Source: a virus
Length of the DNA: 23,142 bases
Strand: one strand, 5' to 3'
Virus record (IMG/VR): IMGVR_UViG_3300031857_001458
Span: 1 to 23,142 of that record
This document shows, in pieces, positions 4,295 to 23,142 of this stretch. Made by a program: the position numbers and the translations under genes. Numbering within the stretch: the stretch's first letter is position 1; each line of letters starts with the position of its first letter. The notes beneath the pieces are model-generated. The model did no database searches. It was not told the DNA's origin and worked only from the letters and a program-made list of their open reading frames with translations.

Positions 4295-4720
4295 TTACAA
4301 GAACGCTTTAACCTTCAACGGGTCAGACGTGACTTTAGCAATCACCTCATGATCATTGAAGATTGAAAATAGTGCCGTCTCTTCATCATTCATTGGCACT
4401 TCCCATCGATCGCCGCCCCACTTGGGCATACGAACAAAATCTCCGACTTCGACCCAGCTACCTTCCGGCCAAGGCTCCATCGTATCGCGTTTTTTGAAAG
4501 CAAGGGGGCCAACCGCTATCACTTTCGCGACTTGGTTATTCCACTTTTCGGTTTCTTTGGTTTCCTCAACCAGTACGATTCCGGATTTGGTAACTGTACG
4601 CGGGGTTTGCCTCCACTGTACCAAAACACGTCCACCTACTGGTGCTGCGCCGGGGTCCACCTCAGGAAATGCTTCCTTTAACGCGGCTTCATTCGAAGCT
4701 ACCGGTTCATTCATCTTCAT
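4295..4720 (-). CDS. GroES-like co-chaperonin (Cpn10 family)
   Basis: This 141-aa protein has the GroES beta-barrel order: GGRVLVQW at 29-36, then the mobile loop with TKSGIVLVEE (44-53), VAKVIAVGP (about 64-72), GSWVEVGDFVRMPKWGGDR near 88-106 and FNDHEVIAKV near the end. The tripeptide IVL at 48-50 is the same as the part of E. coli GroES that binds GroEL, so the loop is likely functional. Phage co-chaperonins such as T4 gp31 help host GroEL fold the capsid protein, and this gene sits among the head genes, close to scaffold and MCP. About 25 extra residues precede the barrel. The ATG at 4720 has AGGA five bases upstream; an ATG two codons later is also possible. Confidence 0.87.
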   Translation of the reverse strand: MKMNEPVASNEAALKEAFPEVDPGAAPVGGRVLVQWRQTPRTVTKSGIVLVEETKETEKWNNQVAKVIAVGPLAFKKRDTMEPWPEGSWVEVGDFVRMPKWGGDRWEVPMNDEETALFSIFNDHEVIAKVTSDPLKVKAFL

Positions 4721-7563: not shown

Positions 7564-10500
7564 TTAATATCCTAAATAATGGGCGCGTAAGTTTACTGTG
7601 CCGCCATCGGCATAATAACGCTGTTTGATTTTCTCCTGCCGACGTAACCCCTGCGGGTCCCAATCACTCGTCATAGTGTCCATGCTGTTGGGTTTGTATG
7701 GATTATCACGAATTTGGTTGCCGATATCTGTCTCTACATGATTAAACTTAAAATCACCCGGCATATCTTCGATCGGTTGTTCAAATGGACTCGGTGAGTT
7801 AATCGCGCTGTCTTGGCCAGACGGGAACTTACCGGTTTTATATCTATCATGCTTATCCAGTCTCAGAGCTAATCTCATTGTTTCCAAATCCACCGGACTT
7901 AAATTATCAATTTGCTCACGTGTTTGCGTTTTTAGGTCCTGTTCAGCACCCCATTCATCCAATATGTCTAGTAAATCAGGTGACATCGATTCTGCACTAA
8001 CCTTGGTCATCGGAGTACCAAGATAGTGTGACCGCAGATTAACCGAACCGCCTTCTTTCATCTCTGGTGGGGTGTAATCGCGAATCGCATCGAGCATCAT
8101 CTTATCGGATTCACTGAGGATGTTCGGGTCTTTGCGTGACATATCATTGAAATGATTTCTGCCGCCTATTCCCTCCGCATAGCCCAAATCGTACCCGACT
8201 TGATCAGCGATTTCTTGCAACTCCGACCTACGGATTGGCTTACCCCCGATTAAAATCATATCAGTATGATGAGCGTCACCTATCACCGGATGGAAATCAC
8301 CAGTGCGCACGAAATCCGCCACGTATGCTTGGTAATCATCAGCAGGTCGAGCATTCTGCTTGCCTTTGATCTGGGAAATCACTCTATTGGCACTTGGGTC
8401 GATACCCTTACTGACTAAAAATTCGTTTATCGCTTCTGAAGTCGGGTCTGGGCCGGTGGATTTGTCTGGAGTCGTAGTACGATATGTACTACCGAATTCA
8501 TCCCATAATTGCTTGGCTTTATCCCGACCTATCAGCCGGGTCACGTCATCCCACGTTCTAATCTCGGGCGTGAACGATTCAACCGTCACATGAGGGTGAC
8601 CTTTTTCATCCACTAGCGAGTGTACTTTGGCCTTACCGCTCTTGATGGCATCCCAACCACCATGACCATAAGTAGCATATCCGTGGCCAGCCGAATCTTC
8701 TACCCAATCCGCGTGACCTTTTGGTGGTTCGTACCCACGCACCGAATGGCCCATCGCATCCGATTCTGCAGCAAACGAACCGGGTTTGTTAAGCTCTATC
8801 CACTTGTAACCAGTGTTGTACTCTTTATGGACGGGCAGACCCTCACGACGTGCGGCTTTTGCGGCTTCCATTTTAGCCGCCATTTCCAAATCCCATTGAT
8901 GAGTGCGACGCACTGCATCTTCCATCGATATTTTTGACATTTGCTCAGGACGCAAACGGCCAGCCGCTAATTCTGAATGTAAAACATCGATGATGTGGTC
9001 CATTCCTAAGCTCTGGAGTCGCGGCTCATAAACTTTAGTGCCTTCAGGTAAATTCTTATACCAATCGGGTGTCGGTAAATTATTTAATTCGAACGGGTCG
9101 GCATAGTAACTGCCAGCCATATGCGGCTCAGATACAGCTTGATCTGCCATTGCCTCCCATCTTTTCGCCTCAGGTGAAACACCCATACCTTCTTTAGGGT
9201 AACCGGCTAAACCTCTTTCATGCTGCACCCACGGACTGGCGGTTGCGTAAGCATCGTTAAATTGGGTATGCACGATCCCTTCTTCTGCCAATTTACGTAA
9301 TGGGTCTTCAGGTGTCGCCATATCTCGTTTTACGTACTTGGACAGAGTGCCTCGGACCCAATCATCTACTGCTAAATCGTTTTTAATGCGACTGATCAAA
9401 TTCGGCAAGTCTTCAGCAACCCGACCCGTCAAATTCCCTTGTGCCAAAAGATTTTCATATTCAGCTAAGCGTGCACGAGATACATCAGGGGCAGGTCGCT
9501 CAATAAGACTACTATCGATATCCCTATTTAGCTGCATATCAACGTTTTGCGACCCTCGTGGGCGCACGACATTCGACGTAGTACCGGCTGATGCTTTGGC
9601 GAAAGACGTCGCGCCATGTTTCAATGCGCCCGGAATCGACTTGATGACTTTAATTCCGAGATTGGTGGCCACACCAGCAGGTACCGACGAAAGACCGTCG
9701 ACCGCCCAATCCTGGAGTTTAAGCGTTTCGCCTTTGCCCTTGAACATCGAATCGCCATACGATAAACGGTCCATCATATCGGCAAATGCAGGAACACCGG
9801 CCAGATTCGATATCGCGTCGGTTACCGGGTTCGAATATCCGCCTTGCGCCTTCAGATAATTCTCATGCAAGTACTTGGTCGCATCAGCGATTTTACCAAG
9901 CGCACCCGATCGAGGAGTGGATTTGAATGACTGACGGTCTTCGGTACGCTCAGGCTTACCACCCTCTTTCATGCCGACTGCACCACCGACTGCGAAACCG
10001 GGGAAAGCTTGGCCCTTCCCACTCAGAATCTCTTCAATAGCCTCGGGCGAAAAATTAAGCTCATGATACGCAACACCCCGCCCAGCTTCAGGTGACATAA
10101 TAGGTACAACATCTACACCCTCCATTTTAGAGAGCGGAGCTAGCCCATAATTAACAACTTCTTGATCGTAGATCGGTGCAAACGACTCTGCCGACTTATT
10201 ACGAATATGAGCAATCGCGTCTGCAGACGGCAAGTAGACAGTAGTGTGACCTTGTTCGAGTGCATGCTGTACTGCAGCTTTAAACGCAGTGGCGTGTGCT
10301 TGGTGTAGTGCACCTTCTTGCTTCACACCCTTTTGTGCGTCAGATTGTAATTCTTCGATCACGAACGAATTGGGCTTCAATTCATGCTTGTAAAGGTCGA
10401 CATTATCCTTGTACCTTGTCGGGAGATAGACTTCTTCCGCGTTACCGGTACCACGAAAATGGGCGACCATCGGTTCAGGTGAATTAGGATAATGGCCATA

Positions 10501-11505
10501 AAAATCAGGAGCGTCTGGGTGGCTAACACCCTTTTCGACGTAATCACCAACTCTGATATCTGGATTTAGCCGTTGAAATTCTTCGTGTGCATACCCACCA
10601 TCCGACGGATCATAATTTGTACGTAAATACTCAAGGGTTTCGTCCATCCTAAGTGAATTGTATTCTTCTTGCAAGTCAGCAAATTTACCGGGGTTAATTT
10701 CACCGGCACCATCAATGACACCTAACTTTTGTAATGCTTGTTTAAGTTCAGGTTCTAAACCATTCGCTACAATTTGCATCTCATCGGTAGCGTATGTGTG
10801 AGCTAATCTATCTAATTGTCTTTCAAAAACCGAATTAGGTTCGACGTCGATAAAACTGGAAAAGTTATTCCAGTAATCGGGATCATCGTGCACCAAATCC
10901 TGAGCTTGATTAAAAAGATGTTCTTCAGCATCATCAGCAGCACCACGTAAATCAATCGTGTTGTATTTCGATGGTGTGAACGAATCTTCGATGAACTGCT
11001 TGGTAACGACGGTGCTTGGGTCCATCGCCTCCAGTTCGACCATCGCAGCTTTTTTGCCTTCCTTGGTCAGGCCTTGCATACCTTTCACCTGCTTGATGAA
11101 GTCACTTACCTTTTGCTTTTCTGGACCCTTTAGGCTCTCGGCGATGACCGAGTGTCGCAGATTTAAATTACCGACTGGTTTGACTGTCAGGCCGACCGGC
11201 ATGCCCTTGGTGGCCTTGGCCAACGCAGAAACGGCAGGTATGAAATTCATAGCACCGAACAGCCCAGCTTTTGTGTCATCCGTCATTTGACGGGCTATGC
11301 CGGTACCACGCGTTAAAGGTGAGCCATAATTAATGTTCTCAGCCGTTTTGTACACGCCGGGGATGTCGAGGAAATCCGAAATCATCGCTGCCGGTGGATT
11401 TTCATAACCGAACGGTTTACGAGCGAAATCGTCCACCTTTTTCAGGGTTTTACCCAAGGCACCAATGGCCGGGTATTTCTCAGGTCGATTTCTGAATTCT
11501 GGCAT
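7564..11505 (-). CDS. 1313-aa large polyvalent-type virion protein with internal duplication
   Basis: The biggest gene in the window, between terL and portal. Two segments start alike: residues 15-100 (GALGKTLKKVDDFARKP, GYENP, DIPGVYKTAE, YGSPL) and residues 534-625 (GALGKIADATKYLHENY, GYSNP, LAGVPAFAD, YGDSM), so an ancestral repeat is likely. Residues 381-490 contain FVIEELQSDAQKG, HTTVYLPSADAIAH and YHELNFSPEAIEEI, resembling the E-E-(L/I)-Q-S-D domain of phage large polyvalent proteins. Residues 918-978 (MGHSVRGYEPP, GHGG, KVHSLVDEKGHPHVTVE) resemble a second domain of that class, although the usual Cys is Ser. Three short motifs carry GG: VGGAVGMKEGG (506-516), MKEGGSVNLRSHYLG (1149-1163) and DGGTVNLRAHYLGY (1300-1313). 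It may be carried in the virion and injected. No signal or membrane segment is clear. The ATG at 11505 follows the terL stop by one base. Confidence 0.72.
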   Translation of the reverse strand: MPEFRNRPEKYPAIGALGKTLKKVDDFARKPFGYENPPAAMISDFLDIPGVYKTAENINYGSPLTRGTGIARQMTDDTKAGLFGAMNFIPAVSALAKATKGMPVGLTVKPVGNLNLRHSVIAESLKGPEKQKVSDFIKQVKGMQGLTKEGKKAAMVELEAMDPSTVVTKQFIEDSFTPSKYNTIDLRGAADDAEEHLFNQAQDLVHDDPDYWNNFSSFIDVEPNSVFERQLDRLAHTYATDEMQIVANGLEPELKQALQKLGVIDGAGEINPGKFADLQEEYNSLRMDETLEYLRTNYDPSDGGYAHEEFQRLNPDIRVGDYVEKGVSHPDAPDFYGHYPNSPEPMVAHFRGTGNAEEVYLPTRYKDNVDLYKHELKPNSFVIEELQSDAQKGVKQEGALHQAHATAFKAAVQHALEQGHTTVYLPSADAIAHIRNKSAESFAPIYDQEVVNYGLAPLSKMEGVDVVPIMSPEAGRGVAYHELNFSPEAIEEILSGKGQAFPGFAVGGAVGMKEGGKPERTEDRQSFKSTPRSGALGKIADATKYLHENYLKAQGGYSNPVTDAISNLAGVPAFADMMDRLSYGDSMFKGKGETLKLQDWAVDGLSSVPAGVATNLGIKVIKSIPGALKHGATSFAKASAGTTSNVVRPRGSQNVDMQLNRDIDSSLIERPAPDVSRARLAEYENLLAQGNLTGRVAEDLPNLISRIKNDLAVDDWVRGTLSKYVKRDMATPEDPLRKLAEEGIVHTQFNDAYATASPWVQHERGLAGYPKEGMGVSPEAKRWEAMADQAVSEPHMAGSYYADPFELNNLPTPDWYKNLPEGTKVYEPRLQSLGMDHIIDVLHSELAAGRLRPEQMSKISMEDAVRRTHQWDLEMAAKMEAAKAARREGLPVHKEYNTGYKWIELNKPGSFAAESDAMGHSVRGYEPPKGHADWVEDSAGHGYATYGHGGWDAIKSGKAKVHSLVDEKGHPHVTVESFTPEIRTWDDVTRLIGRDKAKQLWDEFGSTYRTTTPDKSTGPDPTSEAINEFLVSKGIDPSANRVISQIKGKQNARPADDYQAYVADFVRTGDFHPVIGDAHHTDMILIGGKPIRRSELQEIADQVGYDLGYAEGIGGRNHFNDMSRKDPNILSESDKMMLDAIRDYTPPEMKEGGSVNLRSHYLGTPMTKVSAESMSPDLLDILDEWGAEQDLKTQTREQIDNLSPVDLETMRLALRLDKHDRYKTGKFPSGQDSAINSPSPFEQPIEDMPGDFKFNHVETDIGNQIRDNPYKPNSMDTMTSDWDPQGLRRQEKIKQRYYADGGTVNLRAHYLGY

Positions 11506-11506
11506 T

Positions 11507-12862
11507 TTACACCGCGTAAGGGTTAACTCTCGGGGTCTCGACGTCATAAAGATCGTCGTCGTCTGGTACGGGGTCGATGTTGATCAGGCCCATGTCGCGT
11601 AACAGGCGTAAAGCCTGTGACGTGGTATCTATTAAATCATCCCTGTCGCTTTCTGGGAAGGAGCAGATTTGCGAAATGAGCTTGTCGGCCCAGTCTCGGG
11701 GTTGCCCACGCTTCAGCGTCGATTCGGGTACGTAGACTCGACCGCGCTCGATGATGTTGGCGATGATCACCAATCGCTGCGTTTTGTCGGCGCGTCCCGG
11801 GTTGTAGCCCCTGACCGGCAGGTTAGCACGCTGTAAATCCTGGATGAGCGAAAGGCCCGACGCCTTCTCTTCGATGAGAATCTGATCGACTTTCTTGCCG
11901 GGTTCGCCGTACACCGACTCGTACTCATCGATCATTTTGCGTTTCAGGTCCGGGTAGATCATGAATTCTTCAAAGCAGTCGATGAGCATGACCGACATCG
12001 GCTTATCAGGCGATGGACGAAACACGCCCCAGACCGAACACGCCGTAGGGTCGTTGATCGTCTTGTCGGTGTAGGCCGGGTCGTACGACTGCAAAATGTA
12101 AACGAATTCGGGCAGCTCTTTTTCAGCGGGCCACAAGCGGAACCAGTCACGCCGGATGATACCGTAATCTTCGGGGTCGATAAGCTCGGCGTACAGCTCC
12201 TGCCGCCCGATTCGGGTGCCCTCGTACTCCGAAATGATTTCGTCTCTGAACGTCGGGGCTAGGTTACTGAAATTCTCGTGGGTGGTGCCGGTGGTGACTA
12301 GAACACGCGGGTCGTCGGCCAGCTTGCGAATCATGGGGACGGGCTTGGGCGTCGTGGTGACGCACACTCGTGGCTTTTGCCCCAGTCGTAGACCGAACAT
12401 CAGGTTGGACCACATCGCATCGATGTTGCGGAATTTTGCAAGCTCGTCTACCCACGCCAAGTCATGCTGTGGGCCGCGAAGCGTTTCGGGGTCGTTGTCT
12501 GAGTAGATGGTGGCAATTGCACCGTTTGGCCACTCGAGTCGCCGCTTCGATGGCATGAAAATCGGCCGCATTTTGGGGTGCGAAACGGCCAAAATTCCGG
12601 ACTCGCCTTCAATCATAACGTCGCGGGCGTCACCTGCATCCTCAGCGATTAACGCAATGCGACCGGCTAGGCCATTTTCAACGTGATAACGCACGAATTC
12701 GGCACCACACCGGGTTTTGCCCCAACCACGACCGGCCAAGATAAGCCAGATGGTCCACCACTCTTGAGGAGGAATGCACTGGTTGGGTCTGGCCCAAGTA
12801 TCCCAGTCGTAGTAAAGCTCTAAGGCTTCAGCGTCGGTAAGCTCGGTGACAAACTCGTCCAT
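11507..12862 (-). CDS. terL: Terminase large subunit
   Basis: This 451-aa protein is the ATP-driven DNA-packaging motor and nuclease. The N-terminal ATPase domain shows a Walker A motif GRGWGKT at residues 44-50, and a Walker B motif LAWVDE at 135-140 that ends with the catalytic glutamate. TTTPKP near 170 is the coupling motif. The C-terminal RNase H-like nuclease domain begins near QSYDPAYTDKTINDPTA, which carries the first metal-binding Asp, continues with LIEEKASGLSLIQDLQ, and ends with SDRDDLIDTTSQALRLL. The ATG at 12862 lies 11 bases after the terS stop; an in-frame GTG at 12940 would overlap terS and add 26 basic residues, and neither has a strong ribosome-binding site. The downstream gene starts one base after the stop. 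Confidence 0.95.
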   Translation of the reverse strand: MDEFVTELTDAEALELYYDWDTWARPNQCIPPQEWWTIWLILAGRGWGKTRCGAEFVRYHVENGLAGRIALIAEDAGDARDVMIEGESGILAVSHPKMRPIFMPSKRRLEWPNGAIATIYSDNDPETLRGPQHDLAWVDELAKFRNIDAMWSNLMFGLRLGQKPRVCVTTTPKPVPMIRKLADDPRVLVTTGTTHENFSNLAPTFRDEIISEYEGTRIGRQELYAELIDPEDYGIIRRDWFRLWPAEKELPEFVYILQSYDPAYTDKTINDPTACSVWGVFRPSPDKPMSVMLIDCFEEFMIYPDLKRKMIDEYESVYGEPGKKVDQILIEEKASGLSLIQDLQRANLPVRGYNPGRADKTQRLVIIANIIERGRVYVPESTLKRGQPRDWADKLISQICSFPESDRDDLIDTTSQALRLLRDMGLINIDPVPDDDDLYDVETPRVNPYAV

Positions 12863-16650: not shown

Positions 16651-16778
16651 AAAACGCTCCATAACCATTTCACATACTTCGCCAATAAAACACCCACGGT
16701 GACTAAAATAGCTCCCGCTGCACATAGTACTAACATGCCGTAGAGATGGAATGCCATCCACCTTAGTTCGTCTTTCAT
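16647..16778 (-). CDS. 43-aa single-pass membrane protein
   Basis: A tiny gene that encodes MKDELRWMAFHLYGMLVLCA followed by AGAILVTVGVLLAKYVKWLW. Residues 13-34 are one long hydrophobic segment flanked by charged or aromatic residues on both sides. The ATG at 16778 overlaps the preceding stop as ATGA, with AGGGAG five bases upstream. It is the third short membrane protein within 700 bases. Holin, superinfection or host-envelope roles are all possible; nothing in the sequence decides. Confidence 0.68.
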   Translation of the reverse strand: MKDELRWMAFHLYGMLVLCAAGAILVTVGVLLAKYVKWLWSVL

Positions 16779-16987
16779 CCCTGCTCCCTTGCGCGGATAG
16801 CTGCGGCAGCTTTTATATATGTTTTGGCGTTGAAAGCAATAACAGCACACGCCTCGCGTTCTTCCGCACGGGCTATTTCAACAAGCTTTTTTGCGTATGC
16901 AAGAGCAATAATTGGCATCCAATCATGATCAGTTGCTATATGCAATCCAGCCTCACGCGCCATGCGGATAATGTCTTCGTTAGTCAT
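16775..16987 (-). CDS. Small phage protein with an EREACAVI motif, 70 aa
   Basis: The protein starts MTNEDIIRMAREAGLHIATD and ends ERLIKE-type helices: KKLVEIARAEEREACAVIAF then TYIKAAAAIRAREQG. I recognise the general plan (M-x-x-E-D-I-I-R-M-A-R-E-A-G, then E-R-E-A-C, then A-A-x-I-R-A-R) from many phage genomes, where it is annotated as hypothetical. GAGGAG lies nine bases before the ATG at 16987. An in-frame ATG at 17005 is less well placed. The stop overlaps the next ATG as ATGA. It shares the E-R-E-A-C motif with the 86-aa protein at 17313-17573. Confidence 0.75.
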   Translation of the reverse strand: MTNEDIIRMAREAGLHIATDHDWMPIIALAYAKKLVEIARAEEREACAVIAFNAKTYIKAAAAIRAREQG

Positions 16988-20099: not shown

Positions 20100-20624
20100 T
20101 TACCTTGACAAGAACTCGGATATCGTCCCGGCACCACCCACCGAAGTGACGGTAGCACCCCCGGTACCACCCCCTCCGACGCCGTTATGTCTAAGTATCT
20201 TTGCAACGTCTTCCGAATTCAACGCTTGAGCGCCACCCAACACCGAAGTGACGACAGTCGTGCTTCCGTCTTGAGTTCGCGCAACATCACCTACCGTAGC
20301 AGCGGCTTCGGGGTTTCCCTCGACCCATTTTTGAAATGCTTCAATCGTCTTGCGATTCTCCGCGTCTTCGCGAATCCGTTCAAGCGCCAATTGGGCGTAG
20401 CCGATGACATCGACCCACGAATCCTCGTATGTCGGGTCGCCATTCAATATGCGGGCGATTTTATGCTGAATCATGTCGAGTGCTTCATGCATGTACGGTT
20501 GCATCTCGTTCCACGCAACACCCTCACGCATCACATATTTAAGACTCACTGATAAATCAGCTTGAAGACGAAAATCACCGTATTTGTCTTTACGATCACT
20601 TAGTATCTTTTGCATTTCTGTCAT
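20100..20624 (-). CDS. DUF6378-like protein with Gly/Thr-rich C-terminal tail
   Basis: This 174-aa protein closes the Z-synthesis operon. Residues 1 to about 95 include DRKDKYGDF, EALDMIQHKIARILNGD and YEDSWVDVIGYAQLALERI, a pattern I associate with phage proteins carrying DUF6378, an all-helical family found near nucleotide-metabolism genes. The E/D spacing is reminiscent of MazG-type folds but the ExxE...ExxD signature is not complete. The last 70 residues are different: Ala, Thr, Val and Gly rich (RHNGVGGGGTGGATVTSVGG) and probably flexible. The ATG at 20624 has AGGGAG seven bases upstream; the longer frame back to 20726 would run over the zinc-ribbon gene and has no ribosome-binding site. 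Function is unknown; a role in dNTP handling is suggested by position only. Confidence 0.75.
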   Translation of the reverse strand: MTEMQKILSDRKDKYGDFRLQADLSVSLKYVMREGVAWNEMQPYMHEALDMIQHKIARILNGDPTYEDSWVDVIGYAQLALERIREDAENRKTIEAFQKWVEGNPEAAATVGDVARTQDGSTTVVTSVLGGAQALNSEDVAKILRHNGVGGGGTGGATVTSVGGAGTISEFLSR

Positions 20625-20757
20625 CTTTTTTCTCCCTAGTAGTATATCTATGGCCACATTCATGATTTTTACACTCACGACGCCGACGGACTGTGTTATC
20701 GGCATTCTGGTAAGTGAGTAACACACGCGTTAACCAACCGCACTTCGGACACTTCAT
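20596..20757 (-). CDS. Small NrdR-like zinc-ribbon protein
   Basis: This 53-aa gene begins MKCPKCGWLT and continues with TVRRRRECKNHECGHRYTT. Cys3, Cys6, Cys29 and Cys34 can form a zinc ribbon, and the string RRRREC...CGHRYTTRE closely resembles the DNA-binding zinc ribbon of NrdR, the bacterial repressor of ribonucleotide reductase genes. NrdR is about 150 aa and carries an ATP-cone, which is absent here, and the second cysteine pair is spaced by four residues instead of two. It could be a stand-alone DNA-binding protein that mimics or competes with NrdR, or simply a general phage zinc-ribbon regulator. The ATG overlaps the datZ stop as ATGA; the 3' end overlaps the next gene by 29 bases. 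Confidence 0.8.
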   Translation of the reverse strand: MKCPKCGWLTRVLLTYQNADNTVRRRRECKNHECGHRYTTREKKDDRNAKDTK

Positions 20758-21290
20758 ATGCACATCTCCTTGCGTATACGCGCTACACCATCACGAATCA
20801 ATAAATCCGGGTATTCATTAGAATATTCATCCACCATTGCGTATAAATTATCGTATAAACCCTGCAGCACTTTCCTTGCATGCACGCCTAGACCGTTCTC
20901 GCTCAGGAACCAAACCGCCTCCATCATATCGGCCAATTTTACAATCATCCCATATTCGGTGCCATCGGCGGCGTCTGCCAGATCACCATACCCGGGCGCA
21001 AGATCATCTTCCACAGCTTCTATATCTGCTCCTCTACGCCTTAATTCACGTTTAAATGGAGTAGGTAAATCACCGGTGAACACCTCCGGAATGTCGTGCA
21101 TTAACGCCCACGTTTGCAGCTTCAGAAAGTTATCGCTGTTAATCACGATATCGTAACCTACCGCTTCAGCAAGCTTCTCCGCAATCATAGTGACATTAAA
21201 CAAATGCTCGGCCACAGTCTGCGTACGTGCGGTGCTAACTATCGTCCACCGTTTGGTGTGCGATGCACGCAGCAATTCATAGGTGTTCAT
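20754..21290 (-). CDS. datZ: DatZ, HD-domain dATP triphosphohydrolase
   Basis: This 178-aa protein is an HD-superfamily phosphohydrolase of the YfbR/DatZ size class. The metal-binding set is visible: His29 in VAEH, His65-Asp66 in ALMHDIPE, and Asp121 in VKLADMMEA. The stretch HDIPEVFTGDLPTPFK is the conserved core of this branch. In Z-genome phages DatZ strips triphosphate from dATP, so that adenine is kept out of the replicating phage DNA. Its place two genes after purZ and one after mazZ makes this role much more likely than that of a general 5'-nucleotidase. The ATG at 21290 has only a weak GAG six bases upstream and lies inside the end of the preceding 65-aa gene, so translation is probably coupled. 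The stop overlaps the next ATG as ATGA. Confidence 0.88.
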   Translation of the reverse strand: MNTYELLRASHTKRWTIVSTARTQTVAEHLFNVTMIAEKLAEAVGYDIVINSDNFLKLQTWALMHDIPEVFTGDLPTPFKRELRRRGADIEAVEDDLAPGYGDLADAADGTEYGMIVKLADMMEAVWFLSENGLGVHARKVLQGLYDNLYAMVDEYSNEYPDLLIRDGVARIRKEMCI

Positions 21291-21474
21291 TTTTCTCTAG
21301 CTCCCATAGCGGAATTCTCGCAGCGCATTCATCAACCATTACCTCTGATAATTTCAATAGATGATGTTCACTATTCATATCCGGACGGGTGGTTTCAGTA
21401 GCATGTTCAGCAATGTAACCACGAATGATTTCCACTATCCTTTTTTGAGGGACGAGTGGGACAAACGGTTTCAT
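21277..21474 (-). CDS. Unknown 65-aa protein between mazZ and datZ
   Basis: I do not recognise this 65-aa protein. It begins MKPFVPLVPQKRIVEIIRGY and is predicted to be mostly helical, with charged residues (EHATETTRPDMNSEHH) in the middle and no membrane segment. The ATG at 21474 is preceded by GAGG five bases upstream and overlaps the mazZ stop as ATGA. Its own stop lies 14 bases inside datZ. The longer start at 21513 has no clear ribosome-binding site. The tight coupling on both sides implies expression together with the Z-synthesis enzymes, so a helper role in dZTP supply or dATP removal is possible, but nothing in the sequence proves it. Confidence 0.75.
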   Translation of the reverse strand: MKPFVPLVPQKRIVEIIRGYIAEHATETTRPDMNSEHHLLKLSEVMVDECAARIPLWELEKNEHL

Positions 21475-21965
21475 ATATGCCTCATAATTCGAGTATTGGG
21501 GTCTACCTTCCACTCACGTTGCTCATTGACGTCCATCTTATCATTCACCGCTTTCGTGATGTCGATGTCGTTCATACGAGCTACATCAAGCAGCAGAATC
21601 ATGATGTCCCCGAATTCGGGTGCAGATTTCGGGTCTCTCGCATACTCTCCCAGCTCCTCGTAAAGCTTGAGTAGAATATCAGCTGTTGTACGATTGGGGA
21701 AGTTCTGGTCCGCCCAATCAACGATCCGATCTTGCAACTGCCGTGTATCTGCTCCAGCTCTTTTAGAATAGGCTTGGACGGCGCGAAGAGTAAAATCGGC
21801 GTTGAGGCTACAAGACGCGGTAACCCCTTTGTATATGTCTCGTGTCTCAAAATCTGCCACGGGTAACCCGTTCGCGTCAACCAGAAGCGCGTCATTTTCT
21901 TCGTGTTTACGCCACGGTAACGGATTTTGCTCATCATTATATCCTAACGCTTCATAGATCGGCAT
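21471..21965 (-). CDS. mazZ: MazZ, MazG-like dGTP pyrophosphohydrolase
   Basis: This 164-aa protein has the all-alpha NTP pyrophosphohydrolase signature in its C-terminal half: YEELGE at residues 102-107 followed by EFGD at 117-120 (the ExxE...ExxD metal-binding pattern of MazG), then NDKMDVNEQREW, a typical end for this domain. In Z-genome phages MazZ turns dGTP into dGMP, the substrate of PurZ; that specificity is inferred from the gene order, not from residues. The first 65 or so residues form a separate region with PWRKHEEND, VDANGLPVAD and NADFTLRAVQAY, resembling a small stand-alone phage domain, so the protein looks like a two-domain fusion. The ATG at 21965 has AGGGAG seven bases upstream; a start at 21992 would lengthen the overlap with purZ and has poorer spacing. 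The stop overlaps the next gene as ATGA. Confidence 0.85.
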   Translation of the reverse strand: MPIYEALGYNDEQNPLPWRKHEENDALLVDANGLPVADFETRDIYKGVTASCSLNADFTLRAVQAYSKRAGADTRQLQDRIVDWADQNFPNRTTADILLKLYEELGEYARDPKSAPEFGDIMILLLDVARMNDIDITKAVNDKMDVNEQREWKVDPNTRIMRHI

Positions 21966-22974
21966 GGTCAATCTCCCTAATATCTGCATCATCTGGTCCG
22001 AAGCAAAGGTACTGCACTGAGCGGCCAGTTCTGCTAATTTGTCGTAAAATGTCGGTCAATTTATCCTCACCGCAATAATCCGCGAATGTAAGAACCGTAT
22101 TAGTAATCAGCGTCTCGCAGTGCCACATCGCGTGTTCATACTGCTTATCTGAGAATTCGAAGATTCGACGCGGAAGCTTGGTCACTGTAGTGAGTTCAGG
22201 CTCTTGGCCGATGTCGCCCCAAGATATTTCTTTCTGTCCTGGATATGCCGGGCCTGACGAGCCATCACGATTATTCACGCGAATCGGGAATGTGCGCATC
22301 ACCATCCACACCACGATATCATTCGCCCACGTAAATGGGAGTCCACAATCGGCGGCGATTTGCCATGGCGTCACGTCTCTAGATGTGCAATAGGGCCAAT
22401 CACCATGATAGAGCGACAGACCGAATCCTTGCGCACCCTCGACCAGTAGATGACGCGATTCGCGCAGGGTCTTATCGTATTCGAATTTATCGACTACGAA
22501 TCGCTCCAATGGGTGACCCTTAAACCCAAGTCCAGCTACCGCATTAGAATCCGGGTCGCGCATAATACGATCAACCATCGCAGCGCCGACACCCTTGGTG
22601 GTCGAGCCGATTTTGGTCATGCCCATCTGCTTTTCACGGTCGGCATGTTCGTCGCGTACCACTGCTGCGTGCTCATGAATCACCAATCGCTGACCCGCTC
22701 TCAGGTACTTGTCAATCTCGCGCTGTAGCGTACCTGCATGGATGAGTGAGCCGGGACCTAGCATTACGGTTTTGACTGTCGGACCCGATACGCCTACCGG
22801 CAATTGCTGCACCATCATTTTCAAACCACGGGTGCGGTCGTTATAAGTGTGGCCCGCTTGCGTACCATAAGAGCACACCACGGTATCATAGTTGCGACGC
22901 TTGGCCAGCCAGCCAGATACGCCGCCTTTGCCACAGGAACCCCACATCCCGTCCATAGTTAAATCGATTTTCAT
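21952..22974 (-). CDS. purZ: PurZ, N6-succino-2-amino-2'-deoxyadenylate synthase (adenylosuccinate synthetase family)
   Basis: This 340-aa protein belongs to the PurA family. PurZ couples dGMP with aspartate, using a nucleoside triphosphate, to give the succinylated precursor of dZMP. The P-loop near residues 9-17 reads GMWGSCGKG. In ordinary PurA the equivalent segment is WGDEGKG, and the catalytic Asp (Asp13 in E. coli) is here Ser13. A Ser at this place is the recognised hallmark of PurZ, because it leaves room for the 2-amino group of dGMP. GTQAGHT around His42 corresponds to the second PurA active-site His. VEGAQG, then YCTSRD and the segment RTFPIRVNNRDGSSGP correspond to the nucleotide and aspartate-binding parts. 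The ATG at 22974 has GAGGTG five bases upstream; an in-frame TTG at 22989 lacks one. The 3' end overlaps mazZ by 14 bases. The product would be passed to host PurB, then to host kinases. Confidence 0.93.
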   Translation of the reverse strand: MKIDLTMDGMWGSCGKGGVSGWLAKRRNYDTVVCSYGTQAGHTYNDRTRGLKMMVQQLPVGVSGPTVKTVMLGPGSLIHAGTLQREIDKYLRAGQRLVIHEHAAVVRDEHADREKQMGMTKIGSTTKGVGAAMVDRIMRDPDSNAVAGLGFKGHPLERFVVDKFEYDKTLRESRHLLVEGAQGFGLSLYHGDWPYCTSRDVTPWQIAADCGLPFTWANDIVVWMVMRTFPIRVNNRDGSSGPAYPGQKEISWGDIGQEPELTTVTKLPRRIFEFSDKQYEHAMWHCETLITNTVLTFADYCGEDKLTDILRQISRTGRSVQYLCFGPDDADIREIDHADL

Positions 22975-22999
22975 TATCACCTCTATCAAGTGGAATTAC

Positions 23000-23026
23000 A
23001 TTATAACATAACGCTACCGGTGCTAC
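23000..23026 (-). promoter_or_regulatory. Promoter upstream of purZ, extended -10 type
   Basis: Read on the minus strand the region contains TGTTATAAT, an extended -10 element with perfect TATAAT at 23005-23000. No good TTGACA lies 16-18 bases upstream, unlike the four related promoters further down. The block GTAGCACCGGTAGCG just upstream (23026-23012) shares the TAGCACCGGT core found in the spacers of those promoters. The predicted start is near 22993. The leader could fold CACTT/AGGTG (22992-22978), which would cover the purZ ribosome-binding site. Confidence 0.6.
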
Positions 23027-23031
23027 ACTAT

Positions 23032-23142
23032 CTAACCTTTTGCCGTGTACCAGTCGGTACCCACACCCCAATCGCAGGTGATCGGCACTCGGAATTTCAT
23101 CTCGCATTTGACGCCATCGAAGCAGGTGTAAATGTCGGCGAT
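23032..23142 (-). CDS. dpoZ: C-terminal end of family A DNA polymerase, probable DpoZ (partial)
   Basis: Only the last 36 residues are inside the window; the gene continues beyond 23142 and stops with TAG at 23034-23032. The tail contains KFRVPITCDWGVGTDWYTAKG*, which matches the usual end of PolA-type polymerases: a short strand of the type (F/L)xVPL, then a few residues, then G-x-(N/D)-W before the terminus. The gene lies directly upstream of purZ. In known Z-genome phages such as PhiVC8 a family A polymerase (DpoZ) with preference for dZTP sits in the same neighbourhood, so that role is inferred from context. The catalytic residues are out of view. The stop is followed at once by the purZ promoter region. 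Confidence is moderate because the fragment is short. Confidence 0.62.
   Translation of the reverse strand: MADIYTCFDGVKCEMKFRVPITCDWGVGTDWYTAKG

Follow-up and report, generated by a model that had tools for sequence, protein, structure and literature searches.

A likely 2-aminoadenine gene cluster with small companion genes in a lineage of uncultivated phages

DNA in which 2-aminoadenine (Z) takes the place of adenine is one of the few natural cases of the complete replacement of a standard base. An operon with purZ, mazZ and datZ in the IMG/VR record IMGVR_UViG_3300031857_001458 raised the question of whether its phage makes such DNA, and whether three further genes of the operon belong to the system. 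The whole record of this uncultivated phage, 23,142 bases long and called the window below, was analysed. We found that the locus is very likely a Z-cluster and that its phage would use Z in place of adenine. The lineage, with a PurZ at most about 41% identical to that of any named phage, broadens the known Z set and offers diverged, complete enzyme sets for the laboratory building of Z-DNA, and two of its small companion genes, coding for a zinc ribbon and a DUF6378 protein, can be named as testable candidates. The cluster reads as follows, in gene order.

23142-23032, minus strand: end of dpoZ, family-A DNA polymerase (36 codons and TAG)
22974-21952, minus strand: purZ, 2-amino-adenylosuccinate (N6-succino-2-amino-dAMP) synthetase (340 amino acids)
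21965-21471, minus strand: mazZ, dGTP pyrophosphohydrolase of the MazZ-1 type (164 amino acids; a longer listed open reading frame begins at 21992)
21474-21277, minus strand: open reading frame of 65 amino acids in a variable cargo slot
21290-20754, minus strand: datZ, HD-domain dATP triphosphohydrolase (178 amino acids)
20757-20596, minus strand: zinc ribbon of the NrdR N-terminal type, without ATP-cone (53 amino acids)
20624-20100, minus strand: DUF6378 protein (174 amino acids)

The Z-cluster enzymes and a probable exchange of purZ

An earlier note on this DNA had named purZ, mazZ and datZ as parts of the diaminopurine pathway, lying in that order behind the end of a PolA-type polymerase. 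The order was confirmed by the coordinates, the family matches and the relatives: the arrangement dpoZ-purZ-mazG-(x)-HD-zinc ribbon-DUF6378 was common to all 16 of the first IMG/VR relatives, as far as the length of their records allowed. Since the families concerned are generic and easily matched, the tests that matter for the assignment to the pathway are the discriminating ones, namely the rank of the PDB matches and the specificity residues. Both upheld it, the structures from S-2L and phiVC8 being the closest and the residues being kept.

PurZ matched phrog_1211 (E-value 1e-66) and the NCBIfam family amino_Aden_PurZ (8e-86). Its best PDB matches were the PurZ of phiVC8 (6FM1, 2e-65) and of S-2L (7ODX, 6e-59); PurA structures reached 4e-29 at best. 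The motif WGSCGKG (GS.GKG) places a serine at the position of the catalytic Asp13 of PurA; this serine was invariant across 13 aligned PurZ, and it is present in 100% of the 147 phage PurZ of a published tree (PMC12884076). The mazZ product matched the dATP/dGTP pyrophosphohydrolase family PF04447 (3e-9), and its best PDB match was S-2L MazZ (7ODY, 1.6e-10), no other MazG-type protein falling below 0.29. In S-2L numbering it keeps the counterparts of the metal ligands E34, E35, E38, E50 and D53, of the guanine-contacting I56 and D60, and of K76, N80, R83 and W85. DatZ matched the dATP triphosphohydrolases of phrog_7076 (1.5e-35) and, among PDB entries, S-2L DatZ best (6ZPA, 4e-19; YfbR 1e-8), and it keeps the counterparts of all of R19, W20, I22, H34, H66, D67, P79, K116 and D119. 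The metal ligands and I56/D60 of MazZ, like W20/I22 and the HD ligands of DatZ, are published specificity or catalytic residues; in DatZ, W20 serves the 2'-OH and I22 shuts out the 2-amino group (PMC8342488, PMC8065100).

The polymerase is incomplete in the window because the record ends there. Its last 36 residues were the same (100% identity) as those closing a complete 605-residue PolA in the relative L015, which proved to be a family-A polymerase with a 3'-5' exonuclease (DNA_pol_A, 2.6e-50). The best PDB match of the L015 protein was phiVC8 DpoZ (7PBK, 1.6e-135, versus 8e-38 for Klenow), and it has the long insertion in the fingers that is known from DpoZ of the phiVC8 type (PMC8599892), insertion 3 being clear against Klenow and the others less so. 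Among annotated phages it was 40-47% identical to the polymerases of purZ phages and at most about 30% identical to others, a drop measured on 40 records spread over a set of 248. A polymerase outside family A, which the earlier note had said would tell against its proposal, was thus not what the relative held; its enzyme falls in the DpoZ clade. Upstream of it, L015 encodes a primase-polymerase-like protein, an SNF2-type helicase, a Gp34-like protein, a UvrD-like helicase and a single-strand-binding-like protein.

With Z-enzyme structures closest, specificity residues kept and a DpoZ-clade polymerase in a relative, the locus is therefore read as a canonical Z-cluster with DpoZ. By analogy with established work on S-2L, phiVC8 and SH-Ab 15497, from which the reactions are taken, MazZ would convert dGTP to dGMP, and the predicted reaction of PurZ would join dGMP with aspartate to give N6-succino-2-amino-dAMP, which host PurB and host nucleotide kinases would carry on to dZTP. 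DatZ would degrade the competitor dATP to deoxyadenosine, and DpoZ, the upstream family-A polymerase, would prefer Z over A opposite T. Since the relatives of these enzymes act in this way, we strongly infer that Z would be present in the DNA of this phage.

A new result concerned the history of purZ. The family of the window was compared with a sister group (long records of 48-59 kb) and with a second set of Z phages, the L107 group. Between the window family and the sisters, identity was 54-75% for the polymerase, helicases, Gp34 and MazZ, 40-45% for DatZ and 43-47% for PurZ; between the window family and the L107 group, it was 49-53% for PurZ, 38-42% for the polymerase and 26-32% for DatZ. 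The PurZ data rejected a clade of window family and sisters (approximately unbiased test, p-AU 1.6e-6) and joined the window family to the L107 group with support of 100/100, and the polymerase data supported the former grouping (100) and rejected the latter (p-AU 1.4e-4). We therefore propose that the earlier purZ probably gave way, at its own position, to the purZ of a different Z-phage lineage, and that dpoZ, datZ and the zinc ribbon, in most members also mazZ, were probably retained through the exchange. The apparent exchange of purZ alone, with the polymerase and other enzymes kept, suggests that one system can take over the central enzyme of another, a point of interest for the origin and spread of Z-genomes. 

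Two observations were made beside these comparisons. MazZ has an N-terminal extension of about 70 amino acids (window 21965-21756; PW....DA.G..VA...NAD...RAVNA) that is common to the sister group and absent from L013, L014 and S-2L; the MazZ of L013 and L014, which belong to the same PurZ clade as the window, is a different and shorter one. In the L107 group, Z phages have a large gene after datZ (L118 12325-14892, VapE-like domain, 9e-67; L110 5244-7808), the two products looking like the same protein by eye.

Several points weigh against a Z-cluster in the window or against the exchange. The score of PurZ against NCBIfam NF038379 was 287.8 bits, 12 short of the curated cut-off of 300, although this was the best-scoring of all NCBIfam models and the cut-off is a score threshold rather than a biochemical feature. 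The nearest PurZ of a named phage is only about 41% identical, the dGTP specificity of MazZ would follow from its residues only, and the polymerase is cut in the record and was read from relatives. A DpoZ-like polymerase has been reported without Z genes in phiJL001 (PMC8599892), so membership of the DpoZ clade is no proof of Z by itself. The tree groups of the exchange test were named after the first tree was known, and the pattern in PurZ may partly reflect unequal rates on long branches; the exchange is therefore well supported, not beyond doubt.

Under one alternative, the genes would form a general nucleotide-pool operon of a phage with normal adenine DNA, consisting of a phage PurA that supplies precursors of ordinary dAMP, a MazG with a housekeeping function and a 5'-nucleotidase of the YfbR type. 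The PurA, MazG and HD/YfbR families do occur in ordinary metabolism and the Pfam names are generic. However, Asp13 of PurA is replaced by serine as in every aligned PurZ, no housekeeping enzyme in the PDB matches the MazG and HD proteins as well as S-2L MazZ and DatZ do, the guanine- and adenine-selecting residues are kept, and the polymerase of a near relative belongs to the DpoZ clade, and we regard this explanation as extremely improbable. The cluster might also be decayed or borrowed, with dZTP made only partially or the operon no longer working, and with mixed A/Z DNA as the outcome. The apparent exchange of purZ between lineages and the faster divergence of datZ than of the neighbouring genes would fit such a history, whereas the intact frames, the preserved overlaps and ribosome sites, the full set of catalytic residues and an arrangement kept in 16 relatives speak for a working system; decay or borrowing of this kind appears very improbable.

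The small companion genes

The earlier note had also proposed that three extra genes could be members of the system, and this held only in part: the 65-residue gene is not conserved, the zinc ribbon is strictly linked to datZ in its subfamily, coming after it at practically all places with a close relative, and DUF6378 is enriched and recurrent at Z loci but widespread outside Z phages. For the 65-residue open reading frame no family match was found. Its slot is empty in L002-L006 and holds other, unrelated open reading frames in L007-L012, L015 and L016; absent from the relatives, it was rejected as a conserved member of the operon.

The zinc ribbon matched PF22811 (NrdR N-terminal type, 5.9e-11) and PF04606 (3e-6). 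It has the motif CxxC...RRRREC..C..R.TT.E in common with the N-terminal zinc ribbon of NrdR and with Ogr-Delta zinc fingers. It differs in being only 53 residues long, in lacking the nucleotide-sensing ATP-cone of NrdR and in lying beside datZ, and it scored 25.7 bits against the NCBIfam NrdR model, the cut-off being 124.65, which sets it apart from the NrdR repressor. A scan of IMG/VR for the subfamily gave 69 places, with datZ directly upstream in 53 and within about 500 nucleotides in 3 more; one of the others had no room upstream, and the 12 without datZ were all weak matches (2e-5 or worse). Because the scan started from one phage lineage, shared descent is part of the reason for this linkage. 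We infer for this protein a role as a small regulator that binds nucleic acids and is expressed together with datZ. A search of the PubMed Central literature for aminoadenine together with a zinc ribbon found nothing.

The DUF6378 protein scored 30.0 bits against PF19905 (6e-7), above the Pfam gathering score of 27.1, and all 81 aligned members matched this family, with no other Pfam family matched consistently. It consists of an all-alpha domain of about 85 amino acids, modelled by AlphaFold from the 81 sequences with a pLDDT (predicted local distance difference test) of 96.6, and a low-complexity tail; neither a fold match nor a sequence match was found in the PDB. Residues R, E, K, R, D, W and D are wholly or almost wholly conserved, which suggests an enzyme or a nucleotide binder, and the domain would be an accessory one of nucleotide metabolism. 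Profile comparison gave no link to MazG, and a MazG relative was rejected on this ground. A nucleotide kinase like T7 gp1.7 was likewise rejected (hhalign probability 1.4%), the fold matches to proteins named nucleotide kinase being marginal (E-values of about 2-3).

Among 11 named purZ phages, 6 had DUF6378 at the purZ locus, and in 13 of 37 purZ clusters (clustered at 70% identity) it lay on the same strand within 7 kb, datZ being present in all 13. A tblastn search, less sensitive than a profile, detected it in some 0.4% of the 50,697 phage records, which were not dereplicated. Copies from Z clusters grouped together beyond chance (9 changes versus 31 in shuffled data), on a poorly resolved tree. 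A background rate could not be drawn from the replication module, since the Gp34 search returned almost only purZ phages and just two purZ-free loci with room.

It is on balance probable that the zinc ribbon and DUF6378 travel with one phage backbone as neutral passengers and are not functional parts of the Z system, which is compatible with a Z-cluster in the window. Among the 80 best IMG/VR loci with DUF6378, 74, some of them short, showed neither purZ nor datZ, zinc ribbons turned up in related backbones only, and the third neighbour, the 65-residue gene, is clearly variable cargo. Against passengers stands the fact that the zinc ribbon stays beside datZ despite the replacement of purZ and of the 65-residue slot, with a histone-deacetylase-like gene behind it in the sister group, and that in phiVC8, ZP6, K300, BUCT555 and Bm1, whose backbones differ, DUF6378 follows datZ at a distance of one or two genes. 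That both the zinc ribbon and the DUF6378 of Z clusters serve the system as dedicated and so far undescribed parts is a tentative and rather doubtful proposal; such roles could be, for example, a regulator tuning the supply of host or phage deoxynucleoside triphosphates, and a nucleotide-binding enzyme that assists the conversion of dZMP to dZTP or discards dAMP.

Further observations were made around DUF6378. In S-2L (L020, MW334946.1), an open frame for DUF6378 lies at 16661-16951 on the minus strand of the locus, antisense to the annotated S2L_16, so that this annotation may be spurious and a DUF6378 gene may have been missed. In the sister group, a gene of the histone deacetylase family lies between the zinc ribbon and DUF6378 (L131 12614-13444 and L151 13209-14042; PF00850, 1e-22 and 1e-32), as does a gene of about 390 amino acids for which no family was found in L131.

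Transcription and other features of the window

The six genes from purZ to DUF6378 overlap successively by 14, 4, 14, 4 and 29 nucleotides, in agreement with the earlier note, and a purine-rich, Shine-Dalgarno-like stretch precedes every start in the operon. Between dpoZ and purZ there is a gap of 57 nucleotides. Two promoter features bear on transcription.

22999..23010, minus strand: promoter-like extended -10 element TATGTTATAATG, in the gap between dpoZ and purZ
20071-20043, minus strand: sigma-70-type promoter, TTGACA-17-TATAAT with TG, just past the operon (12 of 12 consensus matches)

The first element, TATG-N-TATAAT, was invariant in the window and 7 aligned relatives (N varies), with varying flanks; no good -35 hexamer was found for it, and the consensus scan did not report it. 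The second is the probable start of the next transcription unit. The overlaps, the conserved extended -10 and the new promoter after DUF6378 thus indicate that purZ to DUF6378 probably form one transcription unit starting at the extended -10. With the downstream promoter included, the minus strand carries four such perfect promoters (20071, 19052, 18502 and 15633), all TTGACA-17/18-TATAAT with TG ahead of the -10 and all with 12 of 12 matches. Two or more of them are near-copies of one longer sequence, the copy at 18502-18473 being related to 20071-20043.

Elsewhere in the window, a gene for a GroES-like co-chaperonin lies among the head genes (4295-4720; phrog_3188, 2e-10). An open reading frame of 1327 amino acids between terminase and portal (7564-11547) had no Pfam or PHROG match and is matched by some relatives in separate pieces. 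Neither tRNA nor Rfam RNA genes were found in the window. The possibility of a contractile-tail phage was set aside: no sheath or baseplate J was found in nine related records, and for this reason no first Z myovirus is claimed. The phage collection searched held no near-identical named phage, and its sole near DNA match to the whole window was a stretch of 66 bp in the DUF6378 gene (20421-20486), 91% identical to Klebsiella phage vB_Kpn_F14. The lineage is without a close isolate in that collection.

Comparison with known Z systems

The gene order purZ-mazZ-datZ has been reported as always conserved (PMC8342488), and in the window these genes stand together with mazZ in the middle, as purZ-mazZ-65-residue frame-datZ. 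Among the 37 purZ clusters with room, datZ was near purZ in all 37 and a MazZ-1-like gene was present in 31.

The Acinetobacter phage SH-Ab 15497 and the Pseudomonas phage PSA28 resemble the present family in a replication module with an identical order of genes: SF2 helicase, Gp34-like protein, UvrD-like helicase, PolA (46-47% identical to that of the window family), purZ, an N-terminally fused MazZ and datZ. Their mazZ is of the DUF550 type. The N-terminal domain of MazZ differs from that in the window, being DUF5664 in SH-Ab 15497 (PMC12884076). The single-strand-binding gene lies between polymerase and purZ in these two phages and before the polymerase here, and no zinc ribbon or DUF6378 was detected in them.

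The cyanophage S-2L shares with the window an overlapping purZ-mazZ-datZ, a MazZ of the MazZ-1 type and the same specificity residues. In contrast to the window family, S-2L lacks both DpoZ and the N-terminal extension of mazZ; its replication is reported to depend on a PrimPol that is not selective (PMC8065100), whereas L015 has a PrimPol-like primase and DpoZ together. Vibrio phage phiVC8 has MazZ-2 (PMC8342488), which the MazZ-1 profile used here did not recognise, a DNA primase gene between polymerase and purZ, and other small genes, with no zinc ribbon, after datZ. It is nevertheless like the window family in PurZ and DpoZ, both 40% identical, and in a DUF6378 gene shortly after datZ.

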